Below are positions 4,842 through 50,173 of a stretch of 50,275 bases of DNA, piece after piece. A program made the translations under genes and the position numbers. Every line of letters starts with the position of its first letter. The first letter of the stretch is position 1. Source of the DNA: a virus; the IMG/VR virus record IMGVR_UViG_3300045010_000280, positions 1 to 50,275 of that record. One strand, 5' to 3'. The notes beneath the pieces are model-generated. The model saw only the letters and a list, made by a program, of their open reading frames with translations, was not told the DNA's origin and searched no databases.

Positions 4842-4845
4842 ATTG

Positions 4846-4871
4846 GGCGAGTCGAAAGACCCGCCTTTTTT
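4846..4871 (+). terminator. Rho-independent terminator
   Basis: The arms are 4846-4853 and 4858-4865 (seven GC-rich pairs and one A/C mismatch), with a GAAA tetraloop and T6. It ends the operon that includes the 42-codon gene. It excludes a start upstream of 4875 for the next gene: the in-frame extension to 4843 would run through this hairpin. Confidence 0.9.
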
Positions 4872-4874
4872 GTT

Positions 4875-4882
4875 TATAAATA
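4875..4882 (+). promoter_or_regulatory. T4-type late promoter TATAAATA, abutting the ATG
   Basis: A perfect TATAAATA directly follows the terminator and is followed by CCAGT and the ATG at 4888. T4 geometry puts +1 on the A of that ATG. No Shine-Dalgarno is possible in so short a leader. Confidence 0.85.
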
Positions 4883-4887
4883 CCAGT

Positions 4888-7104
4888 ATGAGTGATACTT
4901 GGTTCGATCCTACTTTCATCAAAAACTATACCCGTAATATTCTTCCTCATATTAATAATTTGGAAGAGGGCTATTTCTTAAAACAAGAAAAACAAAGCCA
5001 AGCAATCGAAAGATTTATCGCAAGAAAAAAGAGAGATAGAGAGATTCGAACTGCTCGTAACAGAGTTAGGCAACAAAGAGCTGTTCATGCAGCCGAAAGA
5101 GGAAAGGCCAGAGAAATGGACATTCGCACAGGACAACCAATATCAGGAAAAGGAGCTGGTGGATTCTATGAAGAAGTAGAAAAAATATTTGAAAATAAAA
5201 AATCTGGAGAAACAAAAAAGCACAACGAAAAGTTCCGTGGCTTCAAAGATTTCAGAAAGGACTTTAGATTATCTACAAGAGCTGCAATTAAAGGAGATGA
5301 CCGCGAAAAGGATAAACTAAGAAAAAGAGAAGAACGAAGATTAAATGAATTATTTTCAATTCAATCAATAAAGGTAATAAATGAGCAAGAAGAAGAACAA
5401 ACAGAAGATCAACCAGCCGATCAAGGACAAGAAGAAGCTTCTCAAGGAGAGGGAGCTATTCAACAAGAAGGTCTTGTTCCTCCTCCTTTTGAACTCATCT
5501 TCGAACAACTTAAAGGACTTAGATCTAAAGTAAAAAACGTATTCGAAAATCTCAGTAACATTTCCTATAAGATTCTATCGGAAAAATTTAGAGTGTTTTC
5601 AGTAAATAAAGATGATAGAGATTTTCAGATAGAAAATGCTGTTATTCTAATTTCTAGAATTTGCTCTGGTGCTTCTGAGCAAGAACTACAAATTATGCAG
5701 CAATTTGAGGGTGGTAGATTCTTTGACTTTGATGAGGAAGCATTTGAAATTGCTAGAAATCTTCTATCCAATCTAGGCGAATCTTGCTTTCAGAATCTAA
5801 TTTTTATAAACGAACTGGGAACACAAGCTGATATTCCTGGTGGAGGAAGAACACAGATTCTTTGCGGTCAAAATACTTTTAAGATAGTGACCGGGAAAGT
5901 TTATGTGAAAGAAAGTACAGATTCTCCGAACTATGGTGTTAAATTGCAAAATGTAATTAGAATGCTAATTCCAATGAGTATTCCAAACACACCAGAGACA
6001 GAACAGTTTGATCAGATGCATATGTTTATCGAACCACTAAGACGGCAGCTGTTAAAGTTCTCAAGTGTTCTGGTAGATGATACAAATCCACTTACACAAA
6101 CACCAGAGGGAATGCAAATTGTTTATGCAAATGGTTTACTACAGAATAATCAAATTCCTGAAAATGCAAAACTTTCTACAGTAAACAATTTGATACAGCA
6201 GTATGCTAATCAAATAATGAGTGATGTAAAAACATTCAAGAAGTCATTTTTCATGGAAAATCTTAAACTTATGTTGACGAGATATTTCCTATCTGGATTT
6301 AATCAAATGGATCCAAGAAATAATGCTACTCACCTTTTAACTGATAATGGGTTATTCCTAATCAGTGATGATTTGATTGCTTCATACACAAAAGAAGCTG
6401 ATATAGAAATAAGACTAAAAAAATCTAAAAAGTCTTCTATTGGTAGAAAAGAAAAGGGAAGCACTATTTCCAAGTCTATAGAAAAAAATAGAGCAATAGT
6501 AGAGCAAGTTATGCAAGACATGCAACCAGTCTTGACTCCAGATCAAATCTTGATAGATGGGGGAGAAGTAATAAGAAATCTTGACTTTACTTTCTACACA
6601 ATGATCTTAGATAATTTTGACTTGGATTTTAGCATGTCTCTAAATCCAGGATATACTGTATCAACAAAAGAAAAGAAGAAAAACGAATACAACATAGTAA
6701 AAATAAAGGATAAAGAATTTAAAATTCCTGTGCGTATGGATCGCGGAGACATGAGCACAAAAACAATAAAAGAAGAATTTGAGACTTTATTCTCTTTAAG
6801 AGAAAAAAAAGAACTTATAATTGAAAAGCTCAGGGGATACGAAAAGAAATACTCTCAAAAGACCAGTCATCACAGATCAAATAGAAATAAGGCTAGAAGA
6901 GCCGCAGAGAAAAAATTCGGTGCTGCCGCCATGAAAGGTAAGGATGTGGACCACAAAGACGGTAACCCCATGAATAATTCCCCAAGTAATCTTCGTCTAA
7001 GAAGCAGGGGCGAAAATAGATCCGATAATGGTCATCACAAGGGAGAACCCCATAAGAAGGCCATGAAAGGAATCACTAATACATTCAAAGGGAAGGATAA
7101 GTAA
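4888..7104 (+). CDS. Large late protein with C-terminal HNH-type domain
   Basis: The 738-residue product starts MSDTWFDPTF. Residues 20-165 are very basic and helical, and residues about 168-196 form an acidic Gln/Glu linker. Residues 200-560 look like a folded domain of no family I recognise. Residues about 661-730 are basic and contain DVDHKDGNPMNN then SNLRLRSRGEN, the core of HNH_3-type domains (Asp688-His689, Asn693, Asn701). The late promoter makes this a late, probably virion-associated protein, so it may be an injected or capsid-bound nuclease, or the HNH fold may only bind DNA. The start was chosen because the terminator and TATAAATA lie immediately upstream. It shares one base with the next gene. 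Confidence 0.75.
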   Translation: MSDTWFDPTFIKNYTRNILPHINNLEEGYFLKQEKQSQAIERFIARKKRDREIRTARNRVRQQRAVHAAERGKAREMDIRTGQPISGKGAGGFYEEVEKIFENKKSGETKKHNEKFRGFKDFRKDFRLSTRAAIKGDDREKDKLRKREERRLNELFSIQSIKVINEQEEEQTEDQPADQGQEEASQGEGAIQQEGLVPPPFELIFEQLKGLRSKVKNVFENLSNISYKILSEKFRVFSVNKDDRDFQIENAVILISRICSGASEQELQIMQQFEGGRFFDFDEEAFEIARNLLSNLGESCFQNLIFINELGTQADIPGGGRTQILCGQNTFKIVTGKVYVKESTDSPNYGVKLQNVIRMLIPMSIPNTPETEQFDQMHMFIEPLRRQLLKFSSVLVDDTNPLTQTPEGMQIVYANGLLQNNQIPENAKLSTVNNLIQQYANQIMSDVKTFKKSFFMENLKLMLTRYFLSGFNQMDPRNNATHLLTDNGLFLISDDLIASYTKEADIEIRLKKSKKSSIGRKEKGSTISKSIEKNRAIVEQVMQDMQPVLTPDQILIDGGEVIRNLDFTFYTMILDNFDLDFSMSLNPGYTVSTKEKKKNEYNIVKIKDKEFKIPVRMDRGDMSTKTIKEEFETLFSLREKKELIIEKLRGYEKKYSQKTSHHRSNRNKARRAAEKKFGAAAMKGKDVDHKDGNPMNNSPSNLRLRSRGENRSDNGHHKGEPHKKAMKGITNTFKGKDK

Positions 7105-7730
7105 TGTTTGAATTTGACCCTAGACTTATAGAATACGGTATAGCTACCGCTTCATTTCTTGTTGGTGCTTATTTCGGAATAAAAAAGATCAAGGATAAAC
7201 TTTTATCCGATAAAAAGAAAAAAGAAGGTAAGGAATACTGGAATATTCATTCAGAGATTCACGAAATCCTTACCGAACTTCGTATTCGTACAGACGCTGC
7301 AAGAGCACAAATCATTCAATTCCACAACGGCGAATATTTCATGGATGGTGTATCGATGAAGAAAATGAGCCTGACTCACGAATCTCTTCGTTCTGGCATC
7401 AGTGCAGAAGTATATCAAAAGAAAGATGTTCTTATCTCTGCCTATATCGATTTTATTCGTTCTATATTGGACACAAAATATAAGTTTGAAATTGTGGCCG
7501 CAATGAAAGAATCATATCAGAAGCAGCTTTTCATCTCAAGTAATGTTATTGCTTACATGGCAATTCCTCTTCAAAGCAAAGGGGTAAATGTTGGCTATAC
7601 GATAGTACATTGGTGTAGCGACGAAAAAGTAAGTCAACTAAAAGAACAACTTGCTGCTGAAGAAATCAAACACGCAAAAGATAGAATCGAAGTTCAATTG
7701 AGTCATCAAATAGTACTAGGAACATCATGA
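7104..7730 (+). CDS. Membrane-anchored GAF-like domain protein
   Basis: The 208-residue protein has an N-terminal membrane helix (about 9-27) and a basic stop-transfer segment. A domain from about 50 to 190 follows, with the sequence RAQIIQFHNGEYFMDG and later a run of hydrophobic strands (VIAYMAIPLQSKGVNVGYTIVHW). The FHNGxYF pattern recurs in membrane-anchored GAF-like proteins of aquatic phages as I remember them. GAF folds bind small ligands, but no ligand can be read here. The Shine-Dalgarno AAGGA lies 6-8 nt upstream. It sits in a late operon with virion-like genes, so the role may be in the virion or at the cell envelope. Confidence 0.65.
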   Translation: MFEFDPRLIEYGIATASFLVGAYFGIKKIKDKLLSDKKKKEGKEYWNIHSEIHEILTELRIRTDAARAQIIQFHNGEYFMDGVSMKKMSLTHESLRSGISAEVYQKKDVLISAYIDFIRSILDTKYKFEIVAAMKESYQKQLFISSNVIAYMAIPLQSKGVNVGYTIVHWCSDEKVSQLKEQLAAEEIKHAKDRIEVQLSHQIVLGTS

Positions 7731-8617: not shown

Positions 8618-9086
8618 AGAAATATTATCTCTTATAGAATCTGAATCTTTTGATGGTGGTGGATTTGGTGAGCCATTCCAACCAACAAAAACAACCAGAA
8701 CCGCAGCAAGTGATTTTGGTGTTCATCGTGTAGAAAACGATACACAACAAAATAGAATAAATGCATTTTTATCAACCTTCGCTGGTAGAGAATATATCGA
8801 ACCAAGGGGTGCTTTATCTCTTCTGAGAGCAAAAATGAACATTATGGGTTTAGATTTTGATTTTACTCCAAAGACAAAATTAATGCCTGGACCAAATATT
8901 TTTACTCTAAAACGATTTGGAGGAACATTTGGAACTACTCCAGAGCATGATCTACTAAAAGATGGATTCCTAGTAACTGATGGAATAAAAGAATTTAATA
9001 ACGGTAAAGGTTTAAACCTAATTATTGATGTAGTAATAACAGCAAATAACTTGTATAAGTTTAATTTTTCATTAGTACCTAATTAA
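8604..9086 (+). CDS. Hypothetical virion-type protein with prohead-protease-like leader
   Basis: A 160-residue protein beginning MKKFKEILSLIESES. The leader resembles the capsid-targeting sequence of T4 internal proteins (MKTYQEFIAEA type), and LIE-S fits the gp21 protease consensus (L/I)-x-E|(A/G/S). The rest is Gly/Thr-rich and beta-like, with no known domain. Cleavage and packaging are inferred. It has an AAGGA Shine-Dalgarno 6 nt upstream, overlaps the upstream gene by 14 bp, and its stop shares a base with the next start (TAATG). Confidence 0.65.
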   Translation: MKKFKEILSLIESESFDGGGFGEPFQPTKTTRTAASDFGVHRVENDTQQNRINAFLSTFAGREYIEPRGALSLLRAKMNIMGLDFDFTPKTKLMPGPNIFTLKRFGGTFGTTPEHDLLKDGFLVTDGIKEFNNGKGLNLIIDVVITANNLYKFNFSLVPN

Positions 9087-9995: not shown

Positions 9996-10001
9996 TCTCA
10001 G

Positions 10002-12851: not shown

Positions 12852-13415
12852 TCAAATATTATTTTTGTTATTATCATAAACTGATTTGCAGATGTAAAAG
12901 GAGTCAACGATATCCGTAATAGGATTCTTGACTTCTTTTCCTATCTGATCAAAATGGATTCTTAAATCAGTTCCAGTCTCTTTAACAAATGCCTCAAACA
13001 TTTCTTGTTTACTGGCATTTCCCTTTCCGCTTGCAAGTTTCTTGACTCTGGTTGGTTGAACAACATCAAGAGGAATACATTGTTGCCAGAGCTTATATTT
13101 TAGAATACCTGTGTTCTCTGCTATATGAAAAACTCTTCCTTTGGCGGCATATGCATAGTCCTCAAGGACAACCCGGTCACTTCCAATCAGCAGTTCCACT
13201 GCCCAGTCTGAGATGCTATCGTATCTACTACATTCTGCGGTATAGTCAGGAAACAATTCTCCGCGAATATTGTTATTAAACATTGTGGCATTCTTTTTAA
13301 TATCAGTTAGAAAATAAAAAGAACAATTTTTATAACAAAATTCCCCGTGCAATCTGCCATTGAAGATACAGATGCAAGGGGAAGTCAAAGAGTAATCTAT
13401 ACCAGCGATTATCAC
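12852..13415 (-). CDS. RuvC-like Holliday junction resolvase
   Basis: The 187-residue protein has the RNase H-fold pattern of RuvC: GIDYSLTSP with Asp6, VVLEDYA with Glu85, and PITDIVDSFYI with Asp168 and Asp171. Phage members of this family cut branched recombination or packaging intermediates; T4 itself uses the unrelated gp49. The start is GTG at 13415, 7 bp after the neighbour's stop; the adjacent ATG leads straight to a stop. There is no Shine-Dalgarno, and GATAAATA lies 4 nt upstream (overlapping that stop). It is the last gene of the long minus-strand block. Confidence 0.8.
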   Translation of the reverse strand: MIIAGIDYSLTSPCICIFNGRLHGEFCYKNCSFYFLTDIKKNATMFNNNIRGELFPDYTAECSRYDSISDWAVELLIGSDRVVLEDYAYAAKGRVFHIAENTGILKYKLWQQCIPLDVVQPTRVKKLASGKGNASKQEMFEAFVKETGTDLRIHFDQIGKEVKNPITDIVDSFYICKSVYDNNKNNI

Positions 13416-13422
13416 ATATTAT

Positions 13423-14355
13423 TTATCGACTAAGAGCATTAGAAGATTCTAAATGGTTTGTTATTCCTTCTAATGTATATCTATCCACATACTGTGATAA
13501 TACGCCAAGCTCATCTACATTAATTTCCAAATTTTTTAAAACTTGAGGATCAACGACTTTAAATATTTTTGGAAGTGTAGCATTGGCTTGTATAGTTGCT
13601 GTTTTTGCTTGTGATTCAAAATACGGAGGTTTTAATGTTCCTGTTTGTTTTACTGCTTGTTTTACTATTTCATTTGGTACACTATACACCACACTTCTTG
13701 GTCCTTTAAGTATAAAATTACCCAAAATTCCTCTTAAAGCAATATCCATCGTACCTTGTCTGACATCATTATTTGCGTTTATATCTCTAATTGTTTCGGT
13801 TGTTTTTCCTTGTTTATCTAAAAATTCTTGAGAGGTTGGACTATATTCCCGTGCTGCACTTCTAAGGTTAGCTATTCTTCTGTTTAAAGAATCTGGATGC
13901 CAGCTAACTGGAACAGTTGTTGGAACTGCTCCAACAGTTATTTCTGTGTCTGGTTCAAATCCACGAAGTTTATCTACATCTGATATTTCCGGTACAGCTA
14001 ATCTTTTTCCTACTGCTGATCTTAATCCTTTAATTTCTATTGACTTTGTTTCTAATTGTCCTTTGTCATTTAATTTTATAATTTTGCTATCATGCCCTCG
14101 CTCGTTTGCATTTTTTCCCACCAATTCTCCAAAAGTATCGACAAAAACACCCAATCCTCTTTGAGCAGAATGAACTGTACCTAAAGATTTAATTGCTGTA
14201 ATTAGCCTAACAGTATGTTCAGTATTTGCACCTTTTGTTGTATCGATGTTATTTCCAGCAAGTTTACCTAATATTGTTCTAAAAATAGTATTAACGGATT
14301 CTTTGTGATCTTTCTGCTCAATCAAATATTTTACTAGTTTAAGTCTATGGTCCAT
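13423..14355 (-). CDS. Unknown protein with possible PD-(D/E)XK nuclease core
   Basis: A 310-residue protein I cannot place in a family. Residues 70-112 contain TFGELVG (Glu77), then RGHDSKI (Asp89) and KSIEIKGL (Glu107, Lys109). The D-x17-ExK spacing inside alternating hydrophobic strands fits a PD-(D/E)XK core. The C-terminal 150 residues show no motif. It lies between the resolvase and the ribonucleotide reductase, 3 bp after the latter, consistent with DNA metabolism. Nuclease activity is a hypothesis from motif spacing alone. Confidence 0.55.
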   Translation of the reverse strand: MDHRLKLVKYLIEQKDHKESVNTIFRTILGKLAGNNIDTTKGANTEHTVRLITAIKSLGTVHSAQRGLGVFVDTFGELVGKNANERGHDSKIIKLNDKGQLETKSIEIKGLRSAVGKRLAVPEISDVDKLRGFEPDTEITVGAVPTTVPVSWHPDSLNRRIANLRSAAREYSPTSQEFLDKQGKTTETIRDINANNDVRQGTMDIALRGILGNFILKGPRSVVYSVPNEIVKQAVKQTGTLKPPYFESQAKTATIQANATLPKIFKVVDPQVLKNLEINVDELGVLSQYVDRYTLEGITNHLESSNALSR

Positions 14356-14358: not shown

Positions 14359-17016
14359 TTATTTAGTCAGATCAACCAGTTCACATGCCCCAGCCGCGCA
14401 GCTGAAAGTCTGGGTTCCTGTGGTGTTGTCTTCCTTCTCATACTTGGACAATTCGCTCCAATCAACATCCTTTGGAAGCTTGGCAAGCATGGTTTCGTAC
14501 TGCTCCTTGGTGCAGTCTTCATAAGGAGCCTGACGATAGGTGTGGTCTGAGTGCGGAAGAAACGAAATACCGCTGATCTCGTCAAAGTGCTTATAGACCC
14601 AGGCCCCGACTTCCATCCACTCCTCGTCACGAACAGTGATGGTGACGCTTGGCTTGTGTTCGCACCAGTACTGCTGATAGGTGAGCCAGAGTTGTAACTG
14701 TTCAAGAGCAGTCATGTCATTACGGGTGATGCAATGCTCAGGAGCCTTCATTGGGAATGAGAAGACCACTGTGTGGTTTGGCTTCATGACGCATGGCTCG
14801 GCAGGGAATCCCTTGTCAATCATAAACTGGCAGATTGGATCCTTGCGGTCAGCGCGAACACGACGAATGTAATAACTAGCGTGACGAGCATGAATACCTG
14901 AAGCAGCATCTACTAATTGTGAAACTGTGCCAGAAGGTTTGCAACAAGTGATTGCAGCAGACTCGTTGATCTTTAGCTTATGGGCATATTCCTTATTGGT
15001 ATCCACCGCAACATGGCGTAGATGCTCAAGTAGATCGGGTAGATCACCAGCACGGCCATTAGTGATCTCGTTGTCCATGATACCAGTCAGAGACACCCCA
15101 AGCAGACGCTCTTCTTCACAGTTCTTCTTCCAGTCACTTGACAGATAACGGAAGTTAGTAAGTGTAGATTGGAATGTACCAAGAATGGTAGCAAGACGAA
15201 CCTTACGAGCAAGAGTATCTGGAGTATCGTCAGCACGAATCACGACTTCAGATAGATTACAAAACTCACGATCACGCAAAATAATTTCTGAGCAATTATG
15301 TACTATGATAAAGTCTGCAACAAAATTGTGTGTTTCTTCTACCGTCAAATCATACACATCAGTTATAGGACCGTCAGTAATTTCTTCTACTGTAGCATAC
15401 TGGTGCAGATTCGATTTCAGTTCTTCTGGCATCGAAACAATTGTTTTTGTTCCGTGGCGGCTCAATGTTCCACTAACAAATCCATACTTTCCGCTTTCCA
15501 TATAACCTGTAACCATATGATTGTTCGGCTGATTTAGAGCAGTTACTCTAGCATGTTCTGAATGAGACAAACATTCCAAATTATCGATAGAGTTGTTATA
15601 GGTGTCGCCATCAATATGGTGAATATCATATCCGTTTGGAATTTTCCCATATTGGCTTTCATAAACCAAACGATGTTCCATAATAAAATCACGCTTGTCT
15701 TGCGTCGAAAGTTTTACTCCTGAATATGCTGCCCCTCTTCTATTTCTGACTAGATGAACTACTCTATCTCCAATCTCAATATTCTGTGCTTCCACCCAAC
15801 CACGACCAACAATATAGATCTTATGATCTGGAGTACAGGTTAAGACTTTACCAGAAGAGATATGAACTTTGATGGTTTTTGTATTCTTCTTGCTAATCCA
15901 CGACGCTGATGCTTTACGGATGCATAGCTTTCCATCTTTGCCCATGGAATATACCATAGTTGGTTCAGTGATATCTTTGATCTTTACTCGACCATTAATA
16001 GTCTCGACCATAGTATCTGGGTGAAGACATGGATTTGTGCCAAACTCATAGTTTGGATTGCGACGATCACCAAGACGTTTGATCTGATTCTTTGCAGCCT
16101 GACGATTGAAGATACCGCGCTCACCACTCTTACTCTTCACAAGAGCAACCCATTCGTCCATGAATGTTTCCATGTCTGGCTTGCTCTTATATGAAGCAGA
16201 GTTATTTGCTAGTGCGCGTTGACCATTCTTCTCCCACCATGCTCCACTCTTTGCATTACGCATGCGGTCATCGTCAAGTGACGATAAAGAGATAAGAGCA
16301 GAACGACGAACACCCCCGACAACTACAATTTCAGCAATTTTGCATACGATATCGTGGCATTCGACCGTAGTGAGCTTTCTACCAGCCGCCTTACGGAAGG
16401 TTTCAACGGTAAATCGGAAAAGGTCTTCCAAAGGTTCAGGTCCCGATGCTCGTCCACCGAAGATTTTAAGTCTCGCTCCAGCAGGACGAATTTTTGAAAT
16501 GTCCCATCGCGGAATCTGACCACCAATGAGTAGCGAGAAGAGTTCTTTGTAAGCCTTGGCCCAGCCAATCTTAGAGTCCTCCACAACAATGAGCGAATCA
16601 CTGTCGGTAAATTCTTCAGCAATAGTAGGAAGTTTTTCAACGAAATCCCTTTCGACGGAGAATCCAACACCTGTACCGCACATTAAGATATATAGAATCT
16701 CATCAAACGAGCGAACCTTGCTCGTAGAAACATAAGAGCAATTATACCCTGCTACATGGTCGCGCTCCAATGCCTCGCCTGCGGTCATGAGGCAGCGCAT
16801 AGACGGCATCACTTCCAAATTCAGAACAGCTGTTTCAAGCTCCTTGCGTAGATCCTTGGACAACTTGTAGTTGCAGCTTTCCTTGAGGTGCTTTTCAAAG
16901 AAGTCGAAGTAACGAGTTACAGTTTCGTTCCACGACTCCCTTCGTGTTTCCTCATCGATCCAACGAGCATAACGGGAAGCGTGAATAAAACTCTGATATG
17001 GAGTTGGTAGTGACAT
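14359..17016 (-). CDS. nrdJ: Class II (B12-dependent) ribonucleotide reductase interrupted by an intein
   Basis: The 885-residue precursor becomes about 640 residues after removal of the intein at 330-574. The extein resembles monomeric adenosylcobalamin-dependent RNR. It has NCS (Cys93), GTNP-CSEI with the radical-site Cys directly after the intein (Cys575), a second active-site Cys 11 residues later (Cys586) as in the L. leichmannii enzyme, and a C-terminal redox pair (CAAGAC, 873 and 878). It reduces ribonucleotides to deoxyribonucleotides with thioredoxin-type electron donors and needs cobalamin from the host. No metal-radical subunit gene is nearby, as expected for class II. An AAGGA Shine-Dalgarno precedes the ATG. 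ThyX lies just upstream. Confidence 0.9.
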   Translation of the reverse strand: MSLPTPYQSFIHASRYARWIDEETRRESWNETVTRYFDFFEKHLKESCNYKLSKDLRKELETAVLNLEVMPSMRCLMTAGEALERDHVAGYNCSYVSTSKVRSFDEILYILMCGTGVGFSVERDFVEKLPTIAEEFTDSDSLIVVEDSKIGWAKAYKELFSLLIGGQIPRWDISKIRPAGARLKIFGGRASGPEPLEDLFRFTVETFRKAAGRKLTTVECHDIVCKIAEIVVVGGVRRSALISLSSLDDDRMRNAKSGAWWEKNGQRALANNSASYKSKPDMETFMDEWVALVKSKSGERGIFNRQAAKNQIKRLGDRRNPNYEFGTNPCLHPDTMVETINGRVKIKDITEPTMVYSMGKDGKLCIRKASASWISKKNTKTIKVHISSGKVLTCTPDHKIYIVGRGWVEAQNIEIGDRVVHLVRNRRGAAYSGVKLSTQDKRDFIMEHRLVYESQYGKIPNGYDIHHIDGDTYNNSIDNLECLSHSEHARVTALNQPNNHMVTGYMESGKYGFVSGTLSRHGTKTIVSMPEELKSNLHQYATVEEITDGPITDVYDLTVEETHNFVADFIIVHNCSEIILRDREFCNLSEVVIRADDTPDTLARKVRLATILGTFQSTLTNFRYLSSDWKKNCEEERLLGVSLTGIMDNEITNGRAGDLPDLLEHLRHVAVDTNKEYAHKLKINESAAITCCKPSGTVSQLVDAASGIHARHASYYIRRVRADRKDPICQFMIDKGFPAEPCVMKPNHTVVFSFPMKAPEHCITRNDMTALEQLQLWLTYQQYWCEHKPSVTITVRDEEWMEVGAWVYKHFDEISGISFLPHSDHTYRQAPYEDCTKEQYETMLAKLPKDVDWSELSKYEKEDNTTGTQTFSCAAGACELVDLTK
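15295..16029 (-). other. Intein with HNH homing endonuclease, inside nrdJ
   Basis: 245 residues from Cys330 to Asn574 of the precursor. It begins CLHPDTMVETINGRVKI (block A) and contains TPDHKIYI (block B with the TxxH motif). It ends VYDLTVEETHNFVADFIIVHN followed by Cys (blocks F and G, His-Asn|Cys). Residues about 447-490 carry an HNH homing domain (EHRLVYESQYG, GYDIHHIDGDTYNN, NLECLSHSEH). All splicing residues are present, so it should be active. It interrupts the codon pair at the radical-generating cysteine, so no active enzyme forms before splicing. Confidence 0.93.
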
Positions 17017-18770: not shown

Positions 18771-20164
18771 ATAGTCCAATCGTTCACTTTGACTAACTTA
18801 GGAATTTCACGCGGAGAATAGCCTTGGCCGTATCCATCGGGATTGTTCTGATTGGAATCGGCAATGCCATCTTGTTCATCTCGTTTGGCATCATACAGCT
18901 TCATCTTGGAGCGGTCAATACCAATTACAAACTTTTTATTCACAGTCGCACTATTGTAACGATTCTTGAGTTGCTTGACTAGAATCTGACCAGTCTGCTC
19001 TAGATCTTCTGTGCTGATAAGAGCAACAAAGAAATCTGCTGTGGCAGGAAGACCAAACGACTCTGAGGTGTCTTCAAGACCGAAATCGCTATTAGCAAAT
19101 CCAGTTCGATTGACCTGAGTTGCCGAGAATATTGGTACATTGTATTCTACAGCCAATCCGCGAAGTTCTTCTGCAACAGACTTGATATAGAAGTAGCTGT
19201 TTGTGTTTGCGTTTTGCTTGATTCTAGCAGAAGAGCAGATGTTGATGTAGTCAACAAAGATAACATCTGGAACAAATCGCTTCTTGATCTTGAGTTCGTC
19301 AAGAAGATACTTAAAGTTAGCCACTGATGCACTGGCAGTAGGATATTCCTTGATGATTAACTTACCATGCACCTTTTTCTTCAGTTGCTCCATCTTCTTG
19401 TCGTAAATATTCTTTGGAAGATCTTTTAGACTATCCAAAGTGATGTCTAGAAGATTAGCATCAATTCGCTCTGCGATTCTTTCTTCTGCCATTTCGCATG
19501 TGATATACAGAACATTCAGATTCTGTACAAGACAATTTGCTGCATGGTGGCAGAGGAATAGAGACTTACCCACACCCGTACCAGCCATTATGATGTTGAG
19601 AGTCTTTGACGGGACTCCACCGCCAGTGATGGCATTGAAGAATTCAAGATCAAACGGAATACGCTTCTCTAACTGATGATAGAACTCAAAGCGTCGATCA
19701 GCATCATCAATGTAGTCGTGACCAATATGGTTGTCAAATGACACAGACAGAGCATTAGAAAGAATACTAGGGATTGCGTTCTTTGTATGTGTCTTTGATT
19801 TTCCATCGAAAATATGAATAGAATCCATAATAGCATTATAAACGGCCTTATCCTTTACATGATTCTCAGTCTGTTCAATCAGCCAAGTTAGATCGGTCTG
19901 TTCTGGATTGGAATACAAAGATTCAACACACTTGGAGCATTCCGAGAACTCGTCTTCTGAAACAAGGTCAAGCTTACCAAGGCTGATATCAAGAGCCTCC
20001 CTTGTGGGGAGGCTGTTATACTTAGTAATAAATTCTGAAACCAGATTGAAGATCTTTTTATTTACATTGTTACTGAAATATTCTTCCTTGAGGAATGGAT
20101 GTACTTTACGAACATATTGCTCATTCGTTGCCAGATTCTTCAATATAACTGATTCCATCGTCAT
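18767..20164 (-). CDS. 41: Replicative DNA helicase (T4 gp41, DnaB family)
   Basis: A 465-residue protein. Residues 1-130 match the DnaB N-terminal domain, and the RecA-like motor has Walker A GTGVGKS (195-201), an FVDYINIC Walker B and an ATQVNR sensor motif. It unwinds the lagging-strand template 5' to 3' and binds the gp61 primase. It starts ATGACGATGG, overlapping the end of the upstream gene by 44 bp. Position directly before the primase is as in T4. No loader (gp59) is seen in the window. Confidence 0.93.
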   Translation of the reverse strand: MTMESVILKNLATNEQYVRKVHPFLKEEYFSNNVNKKIFNLVSEFITKYNSLPTREALDISLGKLDLVSEDEFSECSKCVESLYSNPEQTDLTWLIEQTENHVKDKAVYNAIMDSIHIFDGKSKTHTKNAIPSILSNALSVSFDNHIGHDYIDDADRRFEFYHQLEKRIPFDLEFFNAITGGGVPSKTLNIIMAGTGVGKSLFLCHHAANCLVQNLNVLYITCEMAEERIAERIDANLLDITLDSLKDLPKNIYDKKMEQLKKKVHGKLIIKEYPTASASVANFKYLLDELKIKKRFVPDVIFVDYINICSSARIKQNANTNSYFYIKSVAEELRGLAVEYNVPIFSATQVNRTGFANSDFGLEDTSESFGLPATADFFVALISTEDLEQTGQILVKQLKNRYNSATVNKKFVIGIDRSKMKLYDAKRDEQDGIADSNQNNPDGYGQGYSPREIPKLVKVNDWTI

Positions 20165-22303: not shown

Positions 22304-24841
22304 TTATGCAAATAAAGACTCCAAAGTGTTTCGTTTTTCTGTCTGCCATCCGATAGCATCCACAATGCTTTTGAGCGGATCTAGAAATGCCTTTTCAAAC
22401 TGCGTATCATAGTCGATGTAGTTCTTTAAGTCAAACTCTTTCGGCAAAGAAGTCATGAATGAAATTACACAATCCTTGCCCGTGATTCCACCAACTGGGT
22501 TGGGAGACTTAAGATATAGGAACTTAATCTTGTCCGCATCACAAATGAACTGGTATTTCTTTCCGAGATCATACTTCTTGATATAGTAGTTGAACAGGAG
22601 TGCTCCCTTGACGGCGATTGGAGTACCCTTCTTATAGATCGTAAACGAATCTGTATAGTCCTTGACTCCGTTCACTGAACGAGGGAATGCAATATCCTCT
22701 GGAGCAAGCTTTCGGAACTTCTTTCTGAAGCTTTCTATGTAATCGATCAGGGTTGCATTGTCATTGGTCAGAATGATATCGATACACTTCTTTAATTCCT
22801 CACGCACAACCTGTGGAGTAGATGAACGGGATGTTTCGATGCCCATGATCTTGGTCTTTGGCTTGGTGTAGCGAACACCTTCAGAGTCGTGAACCAGGAG
22901 CATGTACCGCTTCTTTGCTGTCCAGATACCCTTTGATGCAATAGACTCTCGCTTCATGAACATCTTGTTGTCATAGGCATTCATGAACTCAGCAAGTTCG
23001 TCATAGGATTTCTTGATATACGGCTCCACGATTTCCTTGCAGCATTTGTCCAGATAGGTCACGATTTCTTCTACTGACTTGCCCTTGGCAAGAGTATTTA
23101 CTAATGGACCCATGTTGATATAGATTGAGTCTGTGTCGCTGGCAACGACATAATCGTGGTTTGTCTTGAGCATCTTGTTCAAGAACTCATTGATCTTGTT
23201 TTCGATCCAACGAATTGAAAGCTGACCAGATAGAGTAATAGCTTCGGCAATCTCTTCATCGTAATACCGGAAGTATTCATTTCCAATCGCACCATAAGCG
23301 GAGTTTAGCTGAACCTTACGGGACATCTGGAAATTGTTGAACTTAGCAATCTGTAGTTCCAGATCTTCTCGCTCTGGACTTTCTGGGCCAAGCTTCTCAA
23401 GCTTCTTCTGGCAGTCAATCATCTGCTTCTTGTACTGGCTTCGTTCAGCATACATCTTCTCCATGAGTCGAGGAAGAAAGCCCTGATTGGTCTTGGTGAA
23501 ACCAACTCCATTTGCAGCAACCGAAATACCATGTGTCTTGGCTAGTTCTAGGTACTGGACAGCCTTAGAATTTTTTTCCAGAATATCCATGGGCTTCAGA
23601 CCATTACGAACAAACAAGAACGACTTGTCTTCCTTTGTTTCAGGAGACAGATTATATTGCATGATGAGGTGTGGATAGAGGCTATTCAAGTCGAATGAAA
23701 CGATCCAGTCATTCATGCCGAGAATTGGTTCCTTGACGTATGCACCTTCGTACTGCTGTTCCTTGATCGCTGTCTTCTTTGGAGGAATTACAATCTTATC
23801 CTTGAGGAGTTCATTGTAGATGATCGTGTCCCAAGTACGAACCTGACTGAATACATCGTCGTAGTTTACCTTGGCAGAATATGCCACGGCAAGAACAAGT
23901 TCAATCAGCTTCATCTTGCGTTCAAGCTTATAGACTAGCTCGACATCGTGGAAGTTATACTGCACGAACTTATTGAAATCGTTCTTATAGAACTCCTTCA
24001 GGTTGTCATACTCATCATAGGACAACTTACGCTCACCTAATTCCACTGAGGCAATGTAATCAAGACGATACGATTCCTGCTTGCTGTATGTGAACTTCTG
24101 ATATAGTTCGTAATAGTCCAGAGTAGATACTCCAACCATCTCGTAGCACTTCTGAGGACCACGGCTAGTCTGAATCGTCTTTTCGTAGATTCGTTCAAAT
24201 GGAGATAGCTTCAGGACTTCATCTGATCCTAGAACTCTTACAATACGATTGTAGAGATATGGAATATCGAAGAACCGGACATTCCATCCGGTGATAATGT
24301 CTGGAGCATGCGACTCCCAGAAGAACAAAAACTCTTCCAGCAGTTGCTTTTCGTTGTCATACTTCTGGCAACGAACATTTGGATCATCGATATTAAATTC
24401 GCCAAGACCAAACACATAGGAACGATCATTGATACGAACAGTAATTGCAATCACTTGCTCCGAGGGATTACTGATCTGCGGGAATCCATCTTCACAAGTA
24501 GTTTCGATATCAATATACGCAATTACAATCTTACGAATGTCATATGAAATGTCTTGGGGAAATTCTGTGGCGATGAACTGATAAACAAAGTCAGTCTGGC
24601 CATAGATCTCAAAGCCAATGACATTCTTATACTTGTCGATGAACTCACGGCATTCGTACATGCTACCGGGCTGGATCGGTTCTAGACGAACTCCATCGAG
24701 TGTTCTCCACTCAGTCTTGTTCTTGGTTGGAATAAAAAGAGTCGGGTTAAAGGGGATTGCCCTTTGAACCCGAACTCCATTTTCCACCCCTCTGTAGAGG
24801 ATCTTAGATCCGTGGCTCTCGACGCATGTGTAGAATGACAT
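22304..24841 (-). CDS. 43: DNA polymerase (T4 gp43, family B)
   Basis: An 845-residue protein (T4 gp43 has 898). The 3'-5' exonuclease motifs are IAYIDIET and GWNVRFFDIPYL. The polymerase motifs are FDLNSLYPHLI (A), QLNSAYGAIGNEYF (B) and ASDTDSIYIN (C). It ends with residues typical of the clamp-binding tail (LESLFA). All catalytic acidic residues I can see are intact. A near-perfect sigma70-like promoter lies 6 nt before the ATG. In T4 this gene follows regA; here the order is 43 separated from regA by about 17 kb. Confidence 0.97.
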   Translation of the reverse strand: MSFYTCVESHGSKILYRGVENGVRVQRAIPFNPTLFIPTKNKTEWRTLDGVRLEPIQPGSMYECREFIDKYKNVIGFEIYGQTDFVYQFIATEFPQDISYDIRKIVIAYIDIETTCEDGFPQISNPSEQVIAITVRINDRSYVFGLGEFNIDDPNVRCQKYDNEKQLLEEFLFFWESHAPDIITGWNVRFFDIPYLYNRIVRVLGSDEVLKLSPFERIYEKTIQTSRGPQKCYEMVGVSTLDYYELYQKFTYSKQESYRLDYIASVELGERKLSYDEYDNLKEFYKNDFNKFVQYNFHDVELVYKLERKMKLIELVLAVAYSAKVNYDDVFSQVRTWDTIIYNELLKDKIVIPPKKTAIKEQQYEGAYVKEPILGMNDWIVSFDLNSLYPHLIMQYNLSPETKEDKSFLFVRNGLKPMDILEKNSKAVQYLELAKTHGISVAANGVGFTKTNQGFLPRLMEKMYAERSQYKKQMIDCQKKLEKLGPESPEREDLELQIAKFNNFQMSRKVQLNSAYGAIGNEYFRYYDEEIAEAITLSGQLSIRWIENKINEFLNKMLKTNHDYVVASDTDSIYINMGPLVNTLAKGKSVEEIVTYLDKCCKEIVEPYIKKSYDELAEFMNAYDNKMFMKRESIASKGIWTAKKRYMLLVHDSEGVRYTKPKTKIMGIETSRSSTPQVVREELKKCIDIILTNDNATLIDYIESFRKKFRKLAPEDIAFPRSVNGVKDYTDSFTIYKKGTPIAVKGALLFNYYIKKYDLGKKYQFICDADKIKFLYLKSPNPVGGITGKDCVISFMTSLPKEFDLKNYIDYDTQFEKAFLDPLKSIVDAIGWQTEKRNTLESLFA

Positions 24842-24885
24842 GCTTGGATTATAGCCACAAATCTTTGTAAATCAAGCCTTATCCT
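24826..24885 (-). repeat. 60-bp direct repeat, copy A (promoter and start of gene 43)
   Basis: Identical to 25970-26029 except for 2 mismatches, with the first 40 bp perfect. It covers the end of the upstream gene, the TTGATT/TATAAT promoter and the first five codons (MSFYT) of gene 43. Confidence 0.97.
24848..24875 (-). promoter_or_regulatory. Sigma70-like promoter for gene 43, predicted leaderless
   Basis: TTGATT (24870-24875), a 16-bp spacer, TATAAT (24848-24853), then CCAAGC and the ATG. With -10 at -12 to -7, +1 is the A of the start codon at 24841. No Shine-Dalgarno is present. Confidence 0.7.
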
Positions 24886-25701: not shown

Positions 25702-25729
25702 AGTTTACACTAAAATGAGTAAAAGTCAA
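25702..25729 (-). promoter_or_regulatory. Sigma70-like promoter for dUTPase, predicted leaderless
   Basis: TTGACT (25724-25729), a 16-bp spacer, TAAACT (25702-25707), then TTTACT and the ATG. Predicted +1 is the A at 25695. Confidence 0.6.
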
Positions 25730-25763: not shown

Positions 25764-25985
25764 TTATCCTTCCCAAACACCAACCCAATCACAATAAGGA
25801 GAATATTTTTGTATAATAAACTCTTTATACTGTTCTTGTGTATGAGAGTTGAGTGTGCTGTTTCCTCCTGCACCTCCACTACTTGATCCACTACCAGCAG
25901 ATCCTGCGGTTCCCACGGTAAAGTTGAGAGTGTCTCCTACTTTAAATCCGTCATGAAGACTTCCTCTGTATGTGTAGAATGACAT
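25764..25985 (-). CDS. Small Gly/Ser-rich protein sharing its 5' end with gene 43
   Basis: The 73-residue protein starts MSFYTYRGSLHDG. Residues 27-48 are Gly/Ser/Ala-rich, then QEQYKEFIIQKYSPYCDWVGVWEG. The first five residues and all upstream promoter bases are copies of the gene 43 start (60-bp repeat). The rest has no recognised similarity; the Gly/Ser stretch suggests a fibre-like or linker protein. It may have been created by fusing a copied promoter and start to other sequence. It is probably real because the promoter, start and frame are intact, but expression is unproven. Confidence 0.55.
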   Translation of the reverse strand: MSFYTYRGSLHDGFKVGDTLNFTVGTAGSAGSGSSSGGAGGNSTLNSHTQEQYKEFIIQKYSPYCDWVGVWEG

Positions 25986-26029
25986 GCTTGGATTATAGCC
26001 ACAAATCTTCGTAAATCAAGCCCTATCCT
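25970..26029 (-). repeat. 60-bp direct repeat, copy B
   Basis: The second copy of 24826-24885. It spans the end of the gene at 26016-26252, a promoter identical to that of gene 43, and the start of the small gene at 25985. The pair flanks a 1.1-kb segment with the NMAD1-like, dUTPase and small genes. Confidence 0.97.
25992..26019 (-). promoter_or_regulatory. Duplicate of the gene 43 promoter
   Basis: TTGATT (26014-26019), a 16-bp spacer, TATAAT (25992-25997), then CCAAGC and the ATG at 25985. Both boxes and the 6-nt -10-to-ATG gap are identical to copy A; the spacer differs by one base. Confidence 0.65.
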
Positions 26030-28298: not shown

Positions 28299-28306
28299 TA
28301 TTTATG
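28299..28306 (-). promoter_or_regulatory. Late-promoter-like CATAAATA before the fibre gene
   Basis: Matches the late consensus at 7 of 8 bases, in the 20-bp gap between two fibre genes. Predicted +1 at 28293 leaves a 3-nt leader before the ATG at 28290. Confidence 0.45.
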
Positions 28307-32530: not shown

Positions 32531-32558
32531 ATTATATATTTTTATTGATTAATATCAA
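32531..32558 (-). promoter_or_regulatory. Sigma70-like promoter before the TPR glycosyltransferase
   Basis: TTGATA (32553-32558), a 16-bp spacer, TATAAT (32531-32536). The predicted start leaves a 2-nt leader before the ATG at 32522; no Shine-Dalgarno is visible. Confidence 0.65.
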
Positions 32559-45976: not shown

Positions 45977-47691
45977 TAGGTTTGTACCAGTCTACTAAAA
46001 TTGTTCTTCTTATCAAGAGTAACCATACTCTTGAACTTATCATGGAGTTGGTCTGTTTTGTGACTAATGACAAAGACGTTGCAACCCTTCTTAAGGTTGT
46101 TCAGCAACTTCATAAGTTCGTCTGTTCCTATAGAATCCAGCGACGAGTCAAATACTTCGTCGAGAATGAGTAGGTTGCAGTGAAGACTGTTCTTCATTCT
46201 TGCAACTTCTCGCCAAGCGAGGAGTAGAGAAATGTCGATTCTCATCTTTTCTCCTTCACTGAAGCTCAGATACGAAAACTCGTCACGATGCCGACTTTCA
46301 ATCTTTTCATTAAACTGTTCATCAAGATTGAACTTAACGAAGAATCCCATATTACTGAGATTCTTATTCACTAACTTATTTATAATCGGAAGATAGTGAT
46401 TAACAATCTTTCCTTTAATACCACCATCCTTCAATAGATTAACAACAATTTCGTGATCATTTTGTTGTTTTTCTAGTGAAGATAATGAATTTTCTTTACT
46501 TTTTCTTTCATTTTTGGCAGATTCTAGTTGAATCTTTACTTCATTAATTTGAGATTCGCTAATGGAGTTTTTATCCTGCTCATAGCCAGCCTTAACCTTA
46601 TCAAGATTGGCCATTTCCCGCTCAATAGACTTGACCTCACGCACCAGATCCTTGATCTGCTCCTCTGTTGTCTTCTTCTCCTTGAGGGTCGTGGCGTACC
46701 AGCTAATGGCGTTTATAAGCTCTTCCACATTAATAGCCAGCTTTGATAGCCTAGCCTTCTTATTGTCCGTAATCTGACACTTATGGTTCTTGTCGATGGC
46801 CTGCTTACATGTCGGACAAGACTCATTAGAATTAAAGAATTCTAGCTCTTCATTTATAGTATTTACATTTACAGTAAGATCAGCCTTCTTTTCTCTCAGT
46901 TCAGCCAGATCTTCGTCCGTAACAGTGTACTGTTCTAGTTTCTTGCCCTCTTGGAGGATTTGCTTGTTTAGAAGCTTAATCTTTGCTCTAGAATCTTCAA
47001 TCTCTTGAGCCGTTTCTTTAATCTTAGTGTCAAGTACCTCAATGTTTTTTTCAAAGTTTGACTGTAAATTTTTAAGCGTGGTTTCATACAGTTTTATCTT
47101 TTCGTCTGTAACTTTAAGGTCAATCTTAATACTTTTGATGTTCTCCCGTATCTGAGAAAGCTTGCCCTTCAGAATTAAGTTCATTAAAGAAAAGACATCA
47201 ATATCTAGGATTGTTTCAATGACTTGGCGACGATCTGATGGAGGCAATTCCATGAAAGGAACAAACGATGACTTGCCAAGAATGATGACTTGCATGAAGG
47301 TCTTTTTGTTCATCTTGAGAATCTGTTTCTCAAGGATTTCTTGATAGTCCTTCGTCTTGGCAGCTTGTTCGATCATCACTCCATTCTTATAGATCTCAAA
47401 GATTTTTGGCACAAGACCACGAATAATTTTGTACTGCGCTTTGTTGATTTCGAACTCAACTTCGACAACACAATTCTTCTTGTTTACGCTGTTTACCAGC
47501 TGTGAAATGTTGATGTTGCGGAAAGGAGTTCCAAACAAACCAAACGTGATCGCATCAAGAAAGGCAAAAGATTTTCCGTTTCCATTCGACCCACTTACCA
47601 AAGTGGTCGCACTTTTCTCAAAGTCAATCTCCGAGAAGTTATTGCCAAAGGAACCAAAATTCTTAAACCGTATTTTCTTGAAGTTAATCAT
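45976..47691 (-). CDS. 46: Recombination endonuclease subunit gp46 (Rad50/SbcC-like)
   Basis: A 571-residue SMC-like ATPase. Walker A is VSGSNGNGKS (32-41). Two long coiled coils flank a zinc hook CPTC (292-295) centred near residue 294. A signature region SFSEGEKMRIDISL and Walker B LLILDEVFDSSLD lie in the C-terminal lobe. With gp47 it resects DNA ends for recombination-dependent replication. It overlaps gene 47 by 8 bp. Confidence 0.95.
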   Translation of the reverse strand: MINFKKIRFKNFGSFGNNFSEIDFEKSATTLVSGSNGNGKSFAFLDAITFGLFGTPFRNINISQLVNSVNKKNCVVEVEFEINKAQYKIIRGLVPKIFEIYKNGVMIEQAAKTKDYQEILEKQILKMNKKTFMQVIILGKSSFVPFMELPPSDRRQVIETILDIDVFSLMNLILKGKLSQIRENIKSIKIDLKVTDEKIKLYETTLKNLQSNFEKNIEVLDTKIKETAQEIEDSRAKIKLLNKQILQEGKKLEQYTVTDEDLAELREKKADLTVNVNTINEELEFFNSNESCPTCKQAIDKNHKCQITDNKKARLSKLAINVEELINAISWYATTLKEKKTTEEQIKDLVREVKSIEREMANLDKVKAGYEQDKNSISESQINEVKIQLESAKNERKSKENSLSSLEKQQNDHEIVVNLLKDGGIKGKIVNHYLPIINKLVNKNLSNMGFFVKFNLDEQFNEKIESRHRDEFSYLSFSEGEKMRIDISLLLAWREVARMKNSLHCNLLILDEVFDSSLDSIGTDELMKLLNNLKKGCNVFVISHKTDQLHDKFKSMVTLDKKNNFSRLVQT

Positions 47692-48736
47692 CTATAGTAA
47701 GGGATTCGTGGTACAGATCTTTTATGATACTCTTGATATCGTCTTTATTCGTGATCTCAGATAGATCATCTATCTCTTTGCAGATCATCGTTATTGTATC
47801 CATATTCATATCAATATCAATAGATGAATAATTCATTTCAATTTCTTCATCTACCACCGTTACATCATACGGCTTTGCTTCGTTCAGCTTGGTTATAAAC
47901 TTTTCGTAGAACACTGGCTTGTTTCTTCTCTGAACGATCAATCTTACATACTTATCATTAAATTGAGAGAAGTCAAGATTCTCTAGTTGTTCTGGCAAAG
48001 AGTCATCGTAAATTATTCTATGAAATAGTTCTTCTGTATTCTGAATAAATTCAAGATCCCGTGTTTTGGTATCGAACACATGGAATCCTTTTCGTTCGTT
48101 TACATCCGTGAACCCCATCTGATATTGAGTACCAAGGTATTCGATATTCTTATGGCGAGACTTCAGATGGAAGTGACCTGACATAACAGTTTCGAATCTA
48201 TCGAACATTTCTCTCTGAAGTCCAGATTCGTGATATACCCCACGAAGAACTTCAAATCCAACAATCTCAAAATGGCCCAATAAAATATGGGCCTTGGAAT
48301 TCTTGATATATTCCAAACATTGAGGAAGATTGTCTTCGCAAATCCAGGGAACTGCACCAATCGTTACATCTGGATAAAGTATATCTTTTGGTTCGTTTAC
48401 TACTTCTATGTGAAAATATTTCTCAAGAAGTTCTTGAGGAGAGTTTGTTTTATTTGTATTTCTAAAATAGGTATCGTGATTTCCGATGATGATTTGCATT
48501 GACATGCCCATCTTTTCCATCGGTTCAATTACCCGAGTACGAACTTGCTTCAGAGTATTGAAGTTGATATATTTGCGACGATCAAAGAAATCACCCAGAT
48601 GAATTATTCGTTCAATATTGTTCTTTATACAATATGGAAAGAACTGCCTTTCAAAGAACTGAATAAAATGTTCTAGAAGAACAGGAGAATCATTCTTTGC
48701 TCCGAAGTGAGTGTCGTTGATAATTGATATCTTCAT
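47684..48736 (-). CDS. 47: Recombination nuclease subunit gp47 (Mre11/SbcD-like)
   Basis: A 350-residue metallophosphoesterase. Motifs in order: INDTHFGAK (DxH), HLGDFFDRRK (GDxxD), IIGNHDTY (GNHD), and LLGHFEIVG with MSGHFHLKSR (GHxH). All metal ligands are present. It forms the gp46/47 complex, a nuclease that generates 3' tails for UvsX. It overlaps both gene 46 (8 bp) and gene 55 (4 bp). Confidence 0.95.
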   Translation of the reverse strand: MKISIINDTHFGAKNDSPVLLEHFIQFFERQFFPYCIKNNIERIIHLGDFFDRRKYINFNTLKQVRTRVIEPMEKMGMSMQIIIGNHDTYFRNTNKTNSPQELLEKYFHIEVVNEPKDILYPDVTIGAVPWICEDNLPQCLEYIKNSKAHILLGHFEIVGFEVLRGVYHESGLQREMFDRFETVMSGHFHLKSRHKNIEYLGTQYQMGFTDVNERKGFHVFDTKTRDLEFIQNTEELFHRIIYDDSLPEQLENLDFSQFNDKYVRLIVQRRNKPVFYEKFITKLNEAKPYDVTVVDEEIEMNYSSIDIDMNMDTITMICKEIDDLSEITNKDDIKSIIKDLYHESLTIDD

Positions 48737-49329
48737 CTGACCTTTTTCTTCTTCTTTTTCTTATTCTTTTTTTTAGTATCTTCAAATTTATTTACATCGT
48801 TTTCTGTGAGATTGAAAATTTCTCTAAAGCTCACTGAACTATCTTTGGCAAAGTAATTTTCTTTGAACCATCGATGGAACTTTTCATCTGCATTGTCTTC
48901 CATAATTTTGTATTTAATATATGATTGCTTCTTTTCTTTTTCAATGCGTCTTAAAAAAGCAAAATATATGATTTGGGTAAAATAAGAAAATGGATTTTTT
49001 GATTTTTCTGGATCGAAATTGTGCGCGTACATCAAACAATTTTCTATTCCATCCCCTACCATTTCTTCTCTGTAGGGGTAGTTCATAAAGTTTGGTCTAT
49101 AGGAAAGATGCTCTGCGATCTTTAAGAAGGACTCTGCTATGTAATTTGATACTGGTGGTTTTTTACGCCCAGAATCTTCAGCTGCATTGTACTTCTTTTT
49201 CCATTTTATCATCTCAGCCAAAAATTCTTTATTATCCACATAGTGAGACTTTTCTTCTTCCTCCACTATTGGTATTAATTCTGGCTCTATTATGTCATCT
49301 GATTCTTCTATTTTTTTCTTTTTACTCAT
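48733..49329 (-). CDS. 55: Late-promoter sigma factor gp55
   Basis: A 198-residue divergent sigma factor. It shares with T4-like gp55 the stretch REEMVGDGIENCLMYAHNFDPEKSKNPFSYFTQIIYFAFLRRIEKEKKQ, corresponding to sigma region 2. It redirects host RNA polymerase to TATAAATA promoters, several of which occur in this window. The tail KKKNKKKKKKKVR is unusually Lys-rich. The ATG at 49329 is chosen; an in-frame TTG lies 6 nt earlier. A sigma70-like promoter has its -10 box 6 nt before the ATG and no Shine-Dalgarno. Confidence 0.93.
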   Translation of the reverse strand: MSKKKKIEESDDIIEPELIPIVEEEEKSHYVDNKEFLAEMIKWKKKYNAAEDSGRKKPPVSNYIAESFLKIAEHLSYRPNFMNYPYREEMVGDGIENCLMYAHNFDPEKSKNPFSYFTQIIYFAFLRRIEKEKKQSYIKYKIMEDNADEKFHRWFKENYFAKDSSVSFREIFNLTENDVNKFEDTKKKNKKKKKKKVR

Positions 49330-49335
49330 GCCCAA

Positions 49336-49363
49336 ATAATATCATCTTTCAGAAAAAAATCAA
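49336..49363 (-). promoter_or_regulatory. Sigma70-like promoter for gp55, predicted leaderless
   Basis: TTGATT (49358-49363), a 16-bp spacer, TATTAT (49336-49341), then TTGGGC and the ATG at 49329. Predicted +1 is the A of the ATG. Confidence 0.65.
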
Positions 49364-49422
49364 TTGACAAAATCTAGACTTCTGGATACACTTCGCTGTG
49401 TAGGCGATCAACAAGTAAAATT

Positions 49423-49438
49423 GTAACTAAATAGTTAC
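49423..49438 (-). terminator. Weak terminator candidate after the gene at 49435-50160
   Basis: On the minus strand, GTAACT and AGTTAC form a 6-bp stem with an ATTT loop, followed by AATTTT. It overlaps the stop codon. The stem is short and AT-rich, so read-through is likely. Confidence 0.3.
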
Positions 49439-50160
49439 TCTTTAGTATCCTCAGATATATCATCGATATACTTACGAGGATCATCGGGGAAGTCTTCCAA
49501 ATTAATTCCCTTTCTCCTCATCTTTTCTTTTTCTTTATCGGTGATAAATTCCATTTCAGGAATTAAAAGTTCTTCTTCCTCATCGTCATCCTTTAAAGAA
49601 CCAAACATATCAAAATCTAAAAGACCATTTTCGATCATTTCTTGGAATATATCCGGAGGGATCGAAAAAAACATTCCTATATTTGTATTTGGATTCATAA
49701 AAGGAAATGGCATTGATGGTGATAATTTTGTTAGCGGATTGCTAATTGGAGGTTCACTAGAATCTATTTCAATTATTTCATCAAATAATGATTTAAACAT
49801 ATCCTGTAGGCTATCAGGATTTTGTTCTATTTCTTTTTTCTTTTTTTCAACTTGCTTTAAGTTTTTTTTATAATTTTCTTCTGTTTTTACAAATTTTTGA
49901 TATAAAACTACTGTACTTTCTGAAGGCACAAGAACAGAAGCAATATGATCTCTTGGAAGATCAATATATTCTTGATCAGTAAATTCTAGCCAATTTTTAA
50001 GAACCGTTATTTCTCTAGTCACACCAAGAGAATCTGGAGAAATATGAGTTTTAATAACCATTGGTTTTAAAATGCTAATCGTTGAATCGCTTTCTCCGGA
50101 TAGCAATCCAAGAACTTCTTCACCACTCCTCAGCTTAAACAATCTGCAAGTAGTTTTCAT
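49435..50160 (-). CDS. Conserved T4-like phage protein with an Sm-like N-terminal segment
   Basis: A 241-residue acidic protein. Residues 1-60 (CRLFKLRSGEEVLGLLSGESD, then SILKPMVIKT) alternate strands around a (S/N)GE(E/L)(V/I) pattern resembling Sm/LSm or related small barrels. Residues 70-110 are charged helices, then a disordered Pro/Met/Asp/Glu region and a basic end. Similar proteins sit beside gp55 in aquatic T4-like phages as I recall. RNA binding is a hypothesis. There is an AAAGGA upstream and a GATAAATA 5 nt before the ATG. An intergenic stretch of about 105 bp separates it from gp55. Confidence 0.6.
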   Translation of the reverse strand: MKTTCRLFKLRSGEEVLGLLSGESDSTISILKPMVIKTHISPDSLGVTREITVLKNWLEFTDQEYIDLPRDHIASVLVPSESTVVLYQKFVKTEENYKKNLKQVEKKKKEIEQNPDSLQDMFKSLFDEIIEIDSSEPPISNPLTKLSPSMPFPFMNPNTNIGMFFSIPPDIFQEMIENGLLDFDMFGSLKDDDEEEELLIPEMEFITDKEKEKMRRKGINLEDFPDDPRKYIDDISEDTKE

Positions 50161-50165
50161 ATGAC

Positions 50166-50173
50166 TATTTATC
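50166..50173 (-). promoter_or_regulatory. Late-promoter-like GATAAATA, 5 nt before the ATG
   Basis: 7 of 8 bases match the late consensus. The last A at 50166 puts +1 exactly at 50160, the start codon of the Sm-like gene. AAGGA of a possible Shine-Dalgarno overlaps it, so translational coupling is an alternative. Confidence 0.4.

Follow-up and report, generated by a model that had tools for sequence, protein, structure and literature searches.

The window, that is, the whole stretch of 50,275 bases that we analysed, is an IMG/VR virus record representing a fragment of an uncultured T4-like phage, with an AT content of 63%. It encodes the T4-type replication genes gp41, gp43, gp44, gp45, gp46, gp61 and uvsX, which place it among the T4-like, Kyanoviridae-related phages, and, as expected of a phage with T4-type late promoters, the late sigma factor gp55 (phrog_234, E=1.6e-60); its further genes include nrdJ with an intein, thyX and dUTPase. 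Two kinds of promoter box, late boxes and sigma70-like promoters, stand next to start codons in this DNA, and a preliminary description of it predicted leaderless mRNAs from both. All boxes named there were present where it had placed them, including those of the near-leaderless N8 sites 32522, 28290 and 1434. The late-box sites are listed below, with N followed by a number giving the nucleotides between box and start codon; G001-G007 are seven related contigs.

4845..4873, + strand: terminator-like hairpin and T run, read from the sequence, directly 5' of a late box
4875..4882, + strand: late box TATAAATA, N5 to ATG 4888; N5 kept in the G007 and G001 homologues
4888..7104, + strand: 738-amino-acid late gene with a C-terminal HNH_3 domain, predicted leaderless; N-terminus conserved from the ATG
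1404..1411, - strand: late box TATAAATA, N5 to ATG 1398; identical string in G007
1234..1398, - strand: 54-amino-acid gene (phrog_3684, E=1e-18), predicted leaderless
2260..2267, + strand: late box GATAAATA, N5 to ATG 2273; the G007 homologue is N5 too
13420..13427, - strand: late box GATAAATA, N4 to GTG 13415 (RuvC-like resolvase); N4 in G007 and G001 too
14360..14367, - strand: late box ACTAAATA, N4 to ATG 14355; N4 in G007 too
28299..28306, - strand: late box CATAAATA, N8 to ATG 28290 (tail fibre-like), predicted 3-nt leader; N4 in the G001 and G002 homologues
50166..50173, - strand: late box GATAAATA, N5 to ATG 50160, a weaker case; N5 kept in G003-G005

The N4 boxes at 13415 and 14355 are two sites beyond those listed previously. 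All predicted late promoters carry a TATAAATA-like box, as T4-type late promoters do, and by eye no conserved -35 element was apparent in them. The box at 1404..1411 stands back to back with the sigma70-like promoter of 1434. The order hairpin, T run, late box and ATG, seen at 4845-4888, was seen again in G007, G001 and the SAR11 phages HTVC008M (6280) and Mosig. Homologues of the 4888 gene begin with MSDTWFD, MPNSWFD or MNDSWFD; in its product, HNH_3 occupies residues 670-710 and the remainder of the protein was unmatched. The site at 50160 does have its box at N5, but it retains letters like those of a Shine-Dalgarno (SD) sequence: AAGGA lies 11 nt before the ATG, and the homologues in G001 and G002 have a leader with GGAGG, so we treat it as the weaker case. 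As the spacing at this gene is N5 in four contigs, single genes can therefore switch mode.

The sigma70-like sites are as follows; the four at N6 (gp43, its copy, dUTPase and gp55) match exactly.

24848..24875, - strand: gp43 promoter TTGATT-N16-TATAAT, N6 to ATG 24841; exact match
22304..24841, - strand: gp43 DNA polymerase, predicted leaderless
25702..25729, - strand: dUTPase promoter TTGACT-N16-TAAACT, N6 to ATG 25695; N6 retained in G001, G002, G006 and L019
25189..25695, - strand: dUTPase, predicted leaderless
49336..49363, - strand: gp55 promoter TTGATT-N16-TATTAT, N6 to ATG 49329; N6 in L048-L064, L096 and L113 too
48733..49329, - strand: gp55 late sigma factor (phrog_234), its own mRNA predicted leaderless
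32531..32558, - strand: TTGATA-N16-TATAAT, N8 to ATG 32522 (glycosyltransferase), predicted 2-nt leader; N6 in the G001 and G002 homologues
1420..1425, + strand: -10 box TATACT, N8 to GTG 1434 (HNH endonuclease), predicted 2-nt leader; the G001 homologue has TATAAT-N6-ATG
25967..26022, - strand: duplicate of the gp43 promoter together with the ATG and the initial ~5 codons, 5' of a 73-amino-acid open reading frame (ORF; 25764-25985)

The last site, at 25985, had been put forward as a further case of the same arrangement. Its TTGATT-N16-TATAAT-N6-ATG is indeed exact, but the site duplicates ~60 nt of the gp43 site and is therefore not independent. The region 25764-26022 (- strand) is a natural cassette capture, in which the copied promoter-start block now heads the short ORF; the ORF behind it is a portion of a longer gene in L011 and L018. 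Such copying is as expected if the block were a self-sufficient expression unit.

Since TATAAATA alone was not over-represented in the window (6 occurrences vs 4.5 expected from shuffles), the test had to rest on spacing. We compiled histograms of how far the box lies from the in-frame ATG of each long ORF; all in-frame ATGs close to the start were counted, which kept the choice of start from producing a peak. The late boxes NATAAATA/NCTAAATA showed a spacing peak exactly 5 nt from the ATG. In 127 fetched loci together with the window, ATAAATA was found at N5 in 27 cases and TATAAT at N6 in 21, vs about 2 for each, and 15 and 14 cases, respectively, remained after de-duplication by protein N-terminus. 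In the lineage set, which comprised the window and G001-G007 and was de-duplicated in the same way, 11 genes had a late box at N5 (0.77 expected per position, P=7e-10) and 10 genes had a sigma70 box at N6 (1.65 expected, P=9e-6); permuted motifs gave at most 2 genes at N5 or N6. Full sigma70 promoters of this lineage, with both -35 and -10 elements, occurred at N6 in 12 genes and in about one gene at every other position, and the -35/-10 spacer was 16 bp in 8 of the 10 N6 sigma70 promoters. Clearly, the box-to-ATG spacing is real and far beyond chance, and both peaks lie at a fixed distance that would put the transcription start (+1) on the start codon. The check proposed in the preliminary description, for an excess of N5 and N6 over background, thus came out in its favour by a wide margin. 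Sigma70-like promoters at N>=12 in G001-G007 had a 16-bp spacer in 18 of 32 cases; cyanophages and SAR11/OM43 phages favour 17 bp. The 16-bp preference of the window lineage perhaps hints at its host.

The spacing was conserved where the surrounding letters were not. For gp43, N6 and the 16-bp spacer were constant in relatives at 72-100% identity, while the letters of the spacer varied and those of N6 read CCAAGC, CGCCGC, CGACAC or CACCGC. For gp55, N6 was retained in relatives at ~95%, 90% and 69% identity, as well as in L096 (61%) and L113 (56%). Codons straight after the ATG varied synonymously, and the reading frames were conserved from the ATG.

The presence of an SD sequence, called at a pairing of <= -4.4 kcal/mol, differed with the position of the box. 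Late genes with a box at N4-6 had an SD in 9 of 34 cases in the window lineage and in 1 of 19 in the SAR11/OM43 phages, so that as a class they lacked it at the expected place, whereas those with a box at N12-34 had one in 27 of 32 and 34 of 45 cases, respectively. There are therefore two designs of late gene in the same phages, one with a box abutting the ATG and no SD, the other with a box, a leader and an SD. The earlier proposal that the initiation mode tracks the position in the transcription unit was partly right: promoter-headed genes are themselves split into those at N4-6, mostly without an SD, and those at N12-34, mostly with one, so that the mode tracks the box-to-ATG distance. Similarly, operon-internal genes had been described as mostly carrying an SD or overlapping their neighbour; among 50 other genes of the window, 41 overlap or abut the previous gene, but only 22 have an SD-like motif.

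The late spacing was found in cultured phages too. In HTVC008M and Mosig (SAR11) and Melnitz (OM43), taken together, late boxes at N5 numbered 20 vs 1.74 expected (P=5e-15), and all 11 N5 sites of HTVC008M were on annotated coding sequence (CDS) starts, including those of gp2, gp3, gp4, gp25, tape measure and csgF homologues. Sigma70 boxes at N6 showed no excess in these three phages (5 vs 4.74). Thus, they resemble the window lineage in having late N5 boxes without an SD beside leadered late genes, and differ from it in that the sigma70 N6 excess is significant only in the window lineage. That the SAR11/OM43 phages are confined to the late class makes the two promoter classes separable, which argues that the late and sigma70 leaderless classes evolved separately. 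In HTVC008M, the 26 bp between the start codons of the gp2 and gp4 homologues (18916-18943, L128) hold two divergent late promoters, both at N5; promoters abutting the ATG permit very compact genomes. Ribosomal protein S21 is encoded by HTVC008M (91237), Mosig (9983) and Melnitz (35461) (L234-L236). It was not found in T4 or three cyanophages searched, nor in the contigs of the window lineage, which are incomplete.

By standard geometry, an ATG at N5 from an 8-bp late box, or at N6 from a sigma70 -10 hexamer, has +1 on its A. Bacteria translate leaderless mRNAs with a 5'-terminal AUG. In T4, the TATA box of late promoters occupies the -10 position, roughly one helical turn ahead of the start site (PMC2988020). 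Taken together with the spacing, this suggests that the units described here, in which promoter and start codon adjoin with a predicted +1 on the A of the ATG, very probably yield leaderless mRNAs. The host RNA polymerase would read early promoters by means of the host's primary sigma factor, and late promoters, with their TATAAATA box, by means of phage gp55. Transcription would begin roughly one helical turn past the box, at the A of an ATG placed at N6 (sigma70) or N5 (late), and with +1 at this base the mRNA would begin 5'-AUG and lack an SD. Such a terminal AUG would be bound by the 70S ribosome, or by the 30S subunit with initiator tRNA. A hairpin and T run right before several N5 boxes would shield those genes from read-through. 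Other genes of the same phage have a late box 12-34 nt upstream together with an SD, or are reached as operon-internal genes. From the sequence data, this is the best explanation for both promoter classes in the window lineage and for the late class only in the SAR11/OM43 phages. The original prediction of leaderless mRNAs from two promoter classes is thus supported in part: it passed the spacing test, relatives conserve the arrangement, and its late class extends to HTVC008M, Mosig and Melnitz. What the sequences show are the spacing peaks, their conservation, their distribution over lineages and the contrast in SD between N4-6 and N12-34; where exactly +1 lies, and that translation is leaderless, we infer.

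Several points weigh against this explanation. The gp55 of the window lineage could set +1 a few bases off; several sites are at N4 or N8, so that the start would fall within the codon or leave a leader of 2-3 nt; read-through from upstream could place these starts on longer mRNAs; and SD-like letters remain at some sites, such as 50160. One alternative, which we consider unlikely, is that the promoters are real but initiation wobbles 1-4 nt upstream, giving most mRNAs tiny leaders without an SD. Minor late peaks at N4 and N6, the few N8 sites, and the alternation of N4 and N8 among the 28290 homologues and of N6 and N8 among those of 32522 fit such wobbling. However, the main peaks, at N5 and N6, are one base wide and each stands where +1 on the A would put it, and function would be nearly unchanged if the leaders were this short. 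Much less plausible is that the boxes serve only the downstream operon, the first gene being translated from longer transcripts that read through from upstream, with the box-to-ATG spacing a coincidence. Some promoters do extend into the end of the gene before them (gp43, 24870-24875), which makes read-through possible, but the distance to their own ATG is conserved despite sequence divergence, and terminators precede several N5 boxes whose genes have no SD. Finally, that AT-rich words line up with ATG by chance, or that start codons were miscalled, has a negligible probability: the window is AT-rich and TATAAATA by itself is no commoner than in shuffles, but pooled P values of 1e-5 to 1e-15 with the permuted-motif and spacing controls led us to reject the former, and conserved N-termini with the independent HTVC008M CDS annotation the latter.

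A wider version of the leaderless reading is that, in a whole branch of T4-like phages infecting streamlined aquatic bacteria, much of the promoter-headed expression has shifted to leaderless mRNAs, for early replication genes and gp55-driven late genes alike, within a phage-driven change of ribosome initiation, in which phage S21 could take part. We regard this as a tentative and rather doubtful proposal.

As to the origin of the window, no near match to the stretch searched was found among 50,697 phage records, and no near-identical cultured phage was found. In the gp43 tree, the window lies inside a fully supported clade of uncultured phages, separate from cyanophages; the marine cyanophages, its nearest well-studied relatives by gp43, share ~52% identity. 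Its uvsX is closest to that of Methylophilales phage Melnitz (62%), then to that of Pelagibacter phage HTVC008M (60%). Hints at the host differ by gene: nrdJ points to alphaproteobacterial phages and uvsX to OM43/SAR11 phages, and thyX is uninformative. A gp43 scan of bacterial genomes gave as its sole match a phage-like contig in a Flavobacterium metagenome-assembled genome (45%), unusable as a host link. The nrdJ gene (14359-17016, - strand) encodes a B12-dependent ribonucleotide reductase whose intein (Intein_splicing, 343-574) holds an HNH homing endonuclease (HNH_3, 448-490); its extein is ~64% identical to nrdJ of alphaproteobacterial phages. The 2273 gene contains a proline-rich repeat (3000-3520), and the 90-500 gene a tandem repeat with a unit of ~45-48 nt (240-400).

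If many mRNAs start at the AUG in so large and abundant an aquatic branch of T4-like phages, the annotation of starts, promoters and operons would change. Late promoter prediction in pelagimyophages was earlier 'unsuccessful' (PMC7029224), and such predictions are now supplied. The paper on Melnitz lists promoters and does not mention leaderless mRNAs (PMC9004378), and no earlier description of the N5 late boxes of HTVC008M, Mosig and Melnitz was found in the literature searched. Both leaderless phage mRNAs, in Thermus phages, and T4-type late promoters were known before; their combination, with gp55-type late promoters directly against the ATG throughout an aquatic T4-like branch and early genes likewise, was not found in that literature. 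The three isolates would allow a direct test of leaderless initiation during infection.

T4 serves as the textbook example of a phage whose transcription feeds translation led by an SD. Its late promoters have the same gp55-dependent TATAAATA box, and the gp55 gene is also present in the window, but in T4 and 44RR the late boxes are about 12-37 nt upstream (N12-N37) of genes with an SD, and none was at N5. The Kyanoviridae cyanophages S-PM2, Syn9 and S-CAM4 are similar to the window lineage in their late boxes of [AC]TAAATA type and differ in that these are 16-40 nt upstream (N16-N40), with none at N5; the N5 peak was not seen in P-SSM2 either. By its N5 boxes, where cyanophages have leadered ones, and its separate gp43 clade, the window does not class as a cyanophage. 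A cyanophage host or habit was rejected as the source of the trait. In the alphaproteobacterial T4-like phages phiM12, phiM9 and Cr30, ATAAATA boxes were too few for the spacing test. Among alphaproteobacteria themselves, 171 leaderless genes were mapped in Sinorhizobium meliloti (PMC3616915). These also start at the A of AUG and have no SD, but they are host genes mapped by RNA-seq, whereas the cases in the window are phage genes and are predicted. A further comparison is with the Thermus phages, among which P23-45 has leaderless middle and late mRNAs. In a review, a Thermus phage, phiYS40, is described with mostly leaderless middle and late mRNAs, host IF2 being up and IF3 down (PMC3594737). 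The lytic phages phiYS40 and P23-45 have leaderless later mRNAs, as is predicted here; however, they are unrelated phages with unrelated promoters, whereas the prediction for the window lineage involves the T4 gp55 promoter class and, in addition, early replication genes (gp43, dUTPase, gp55).

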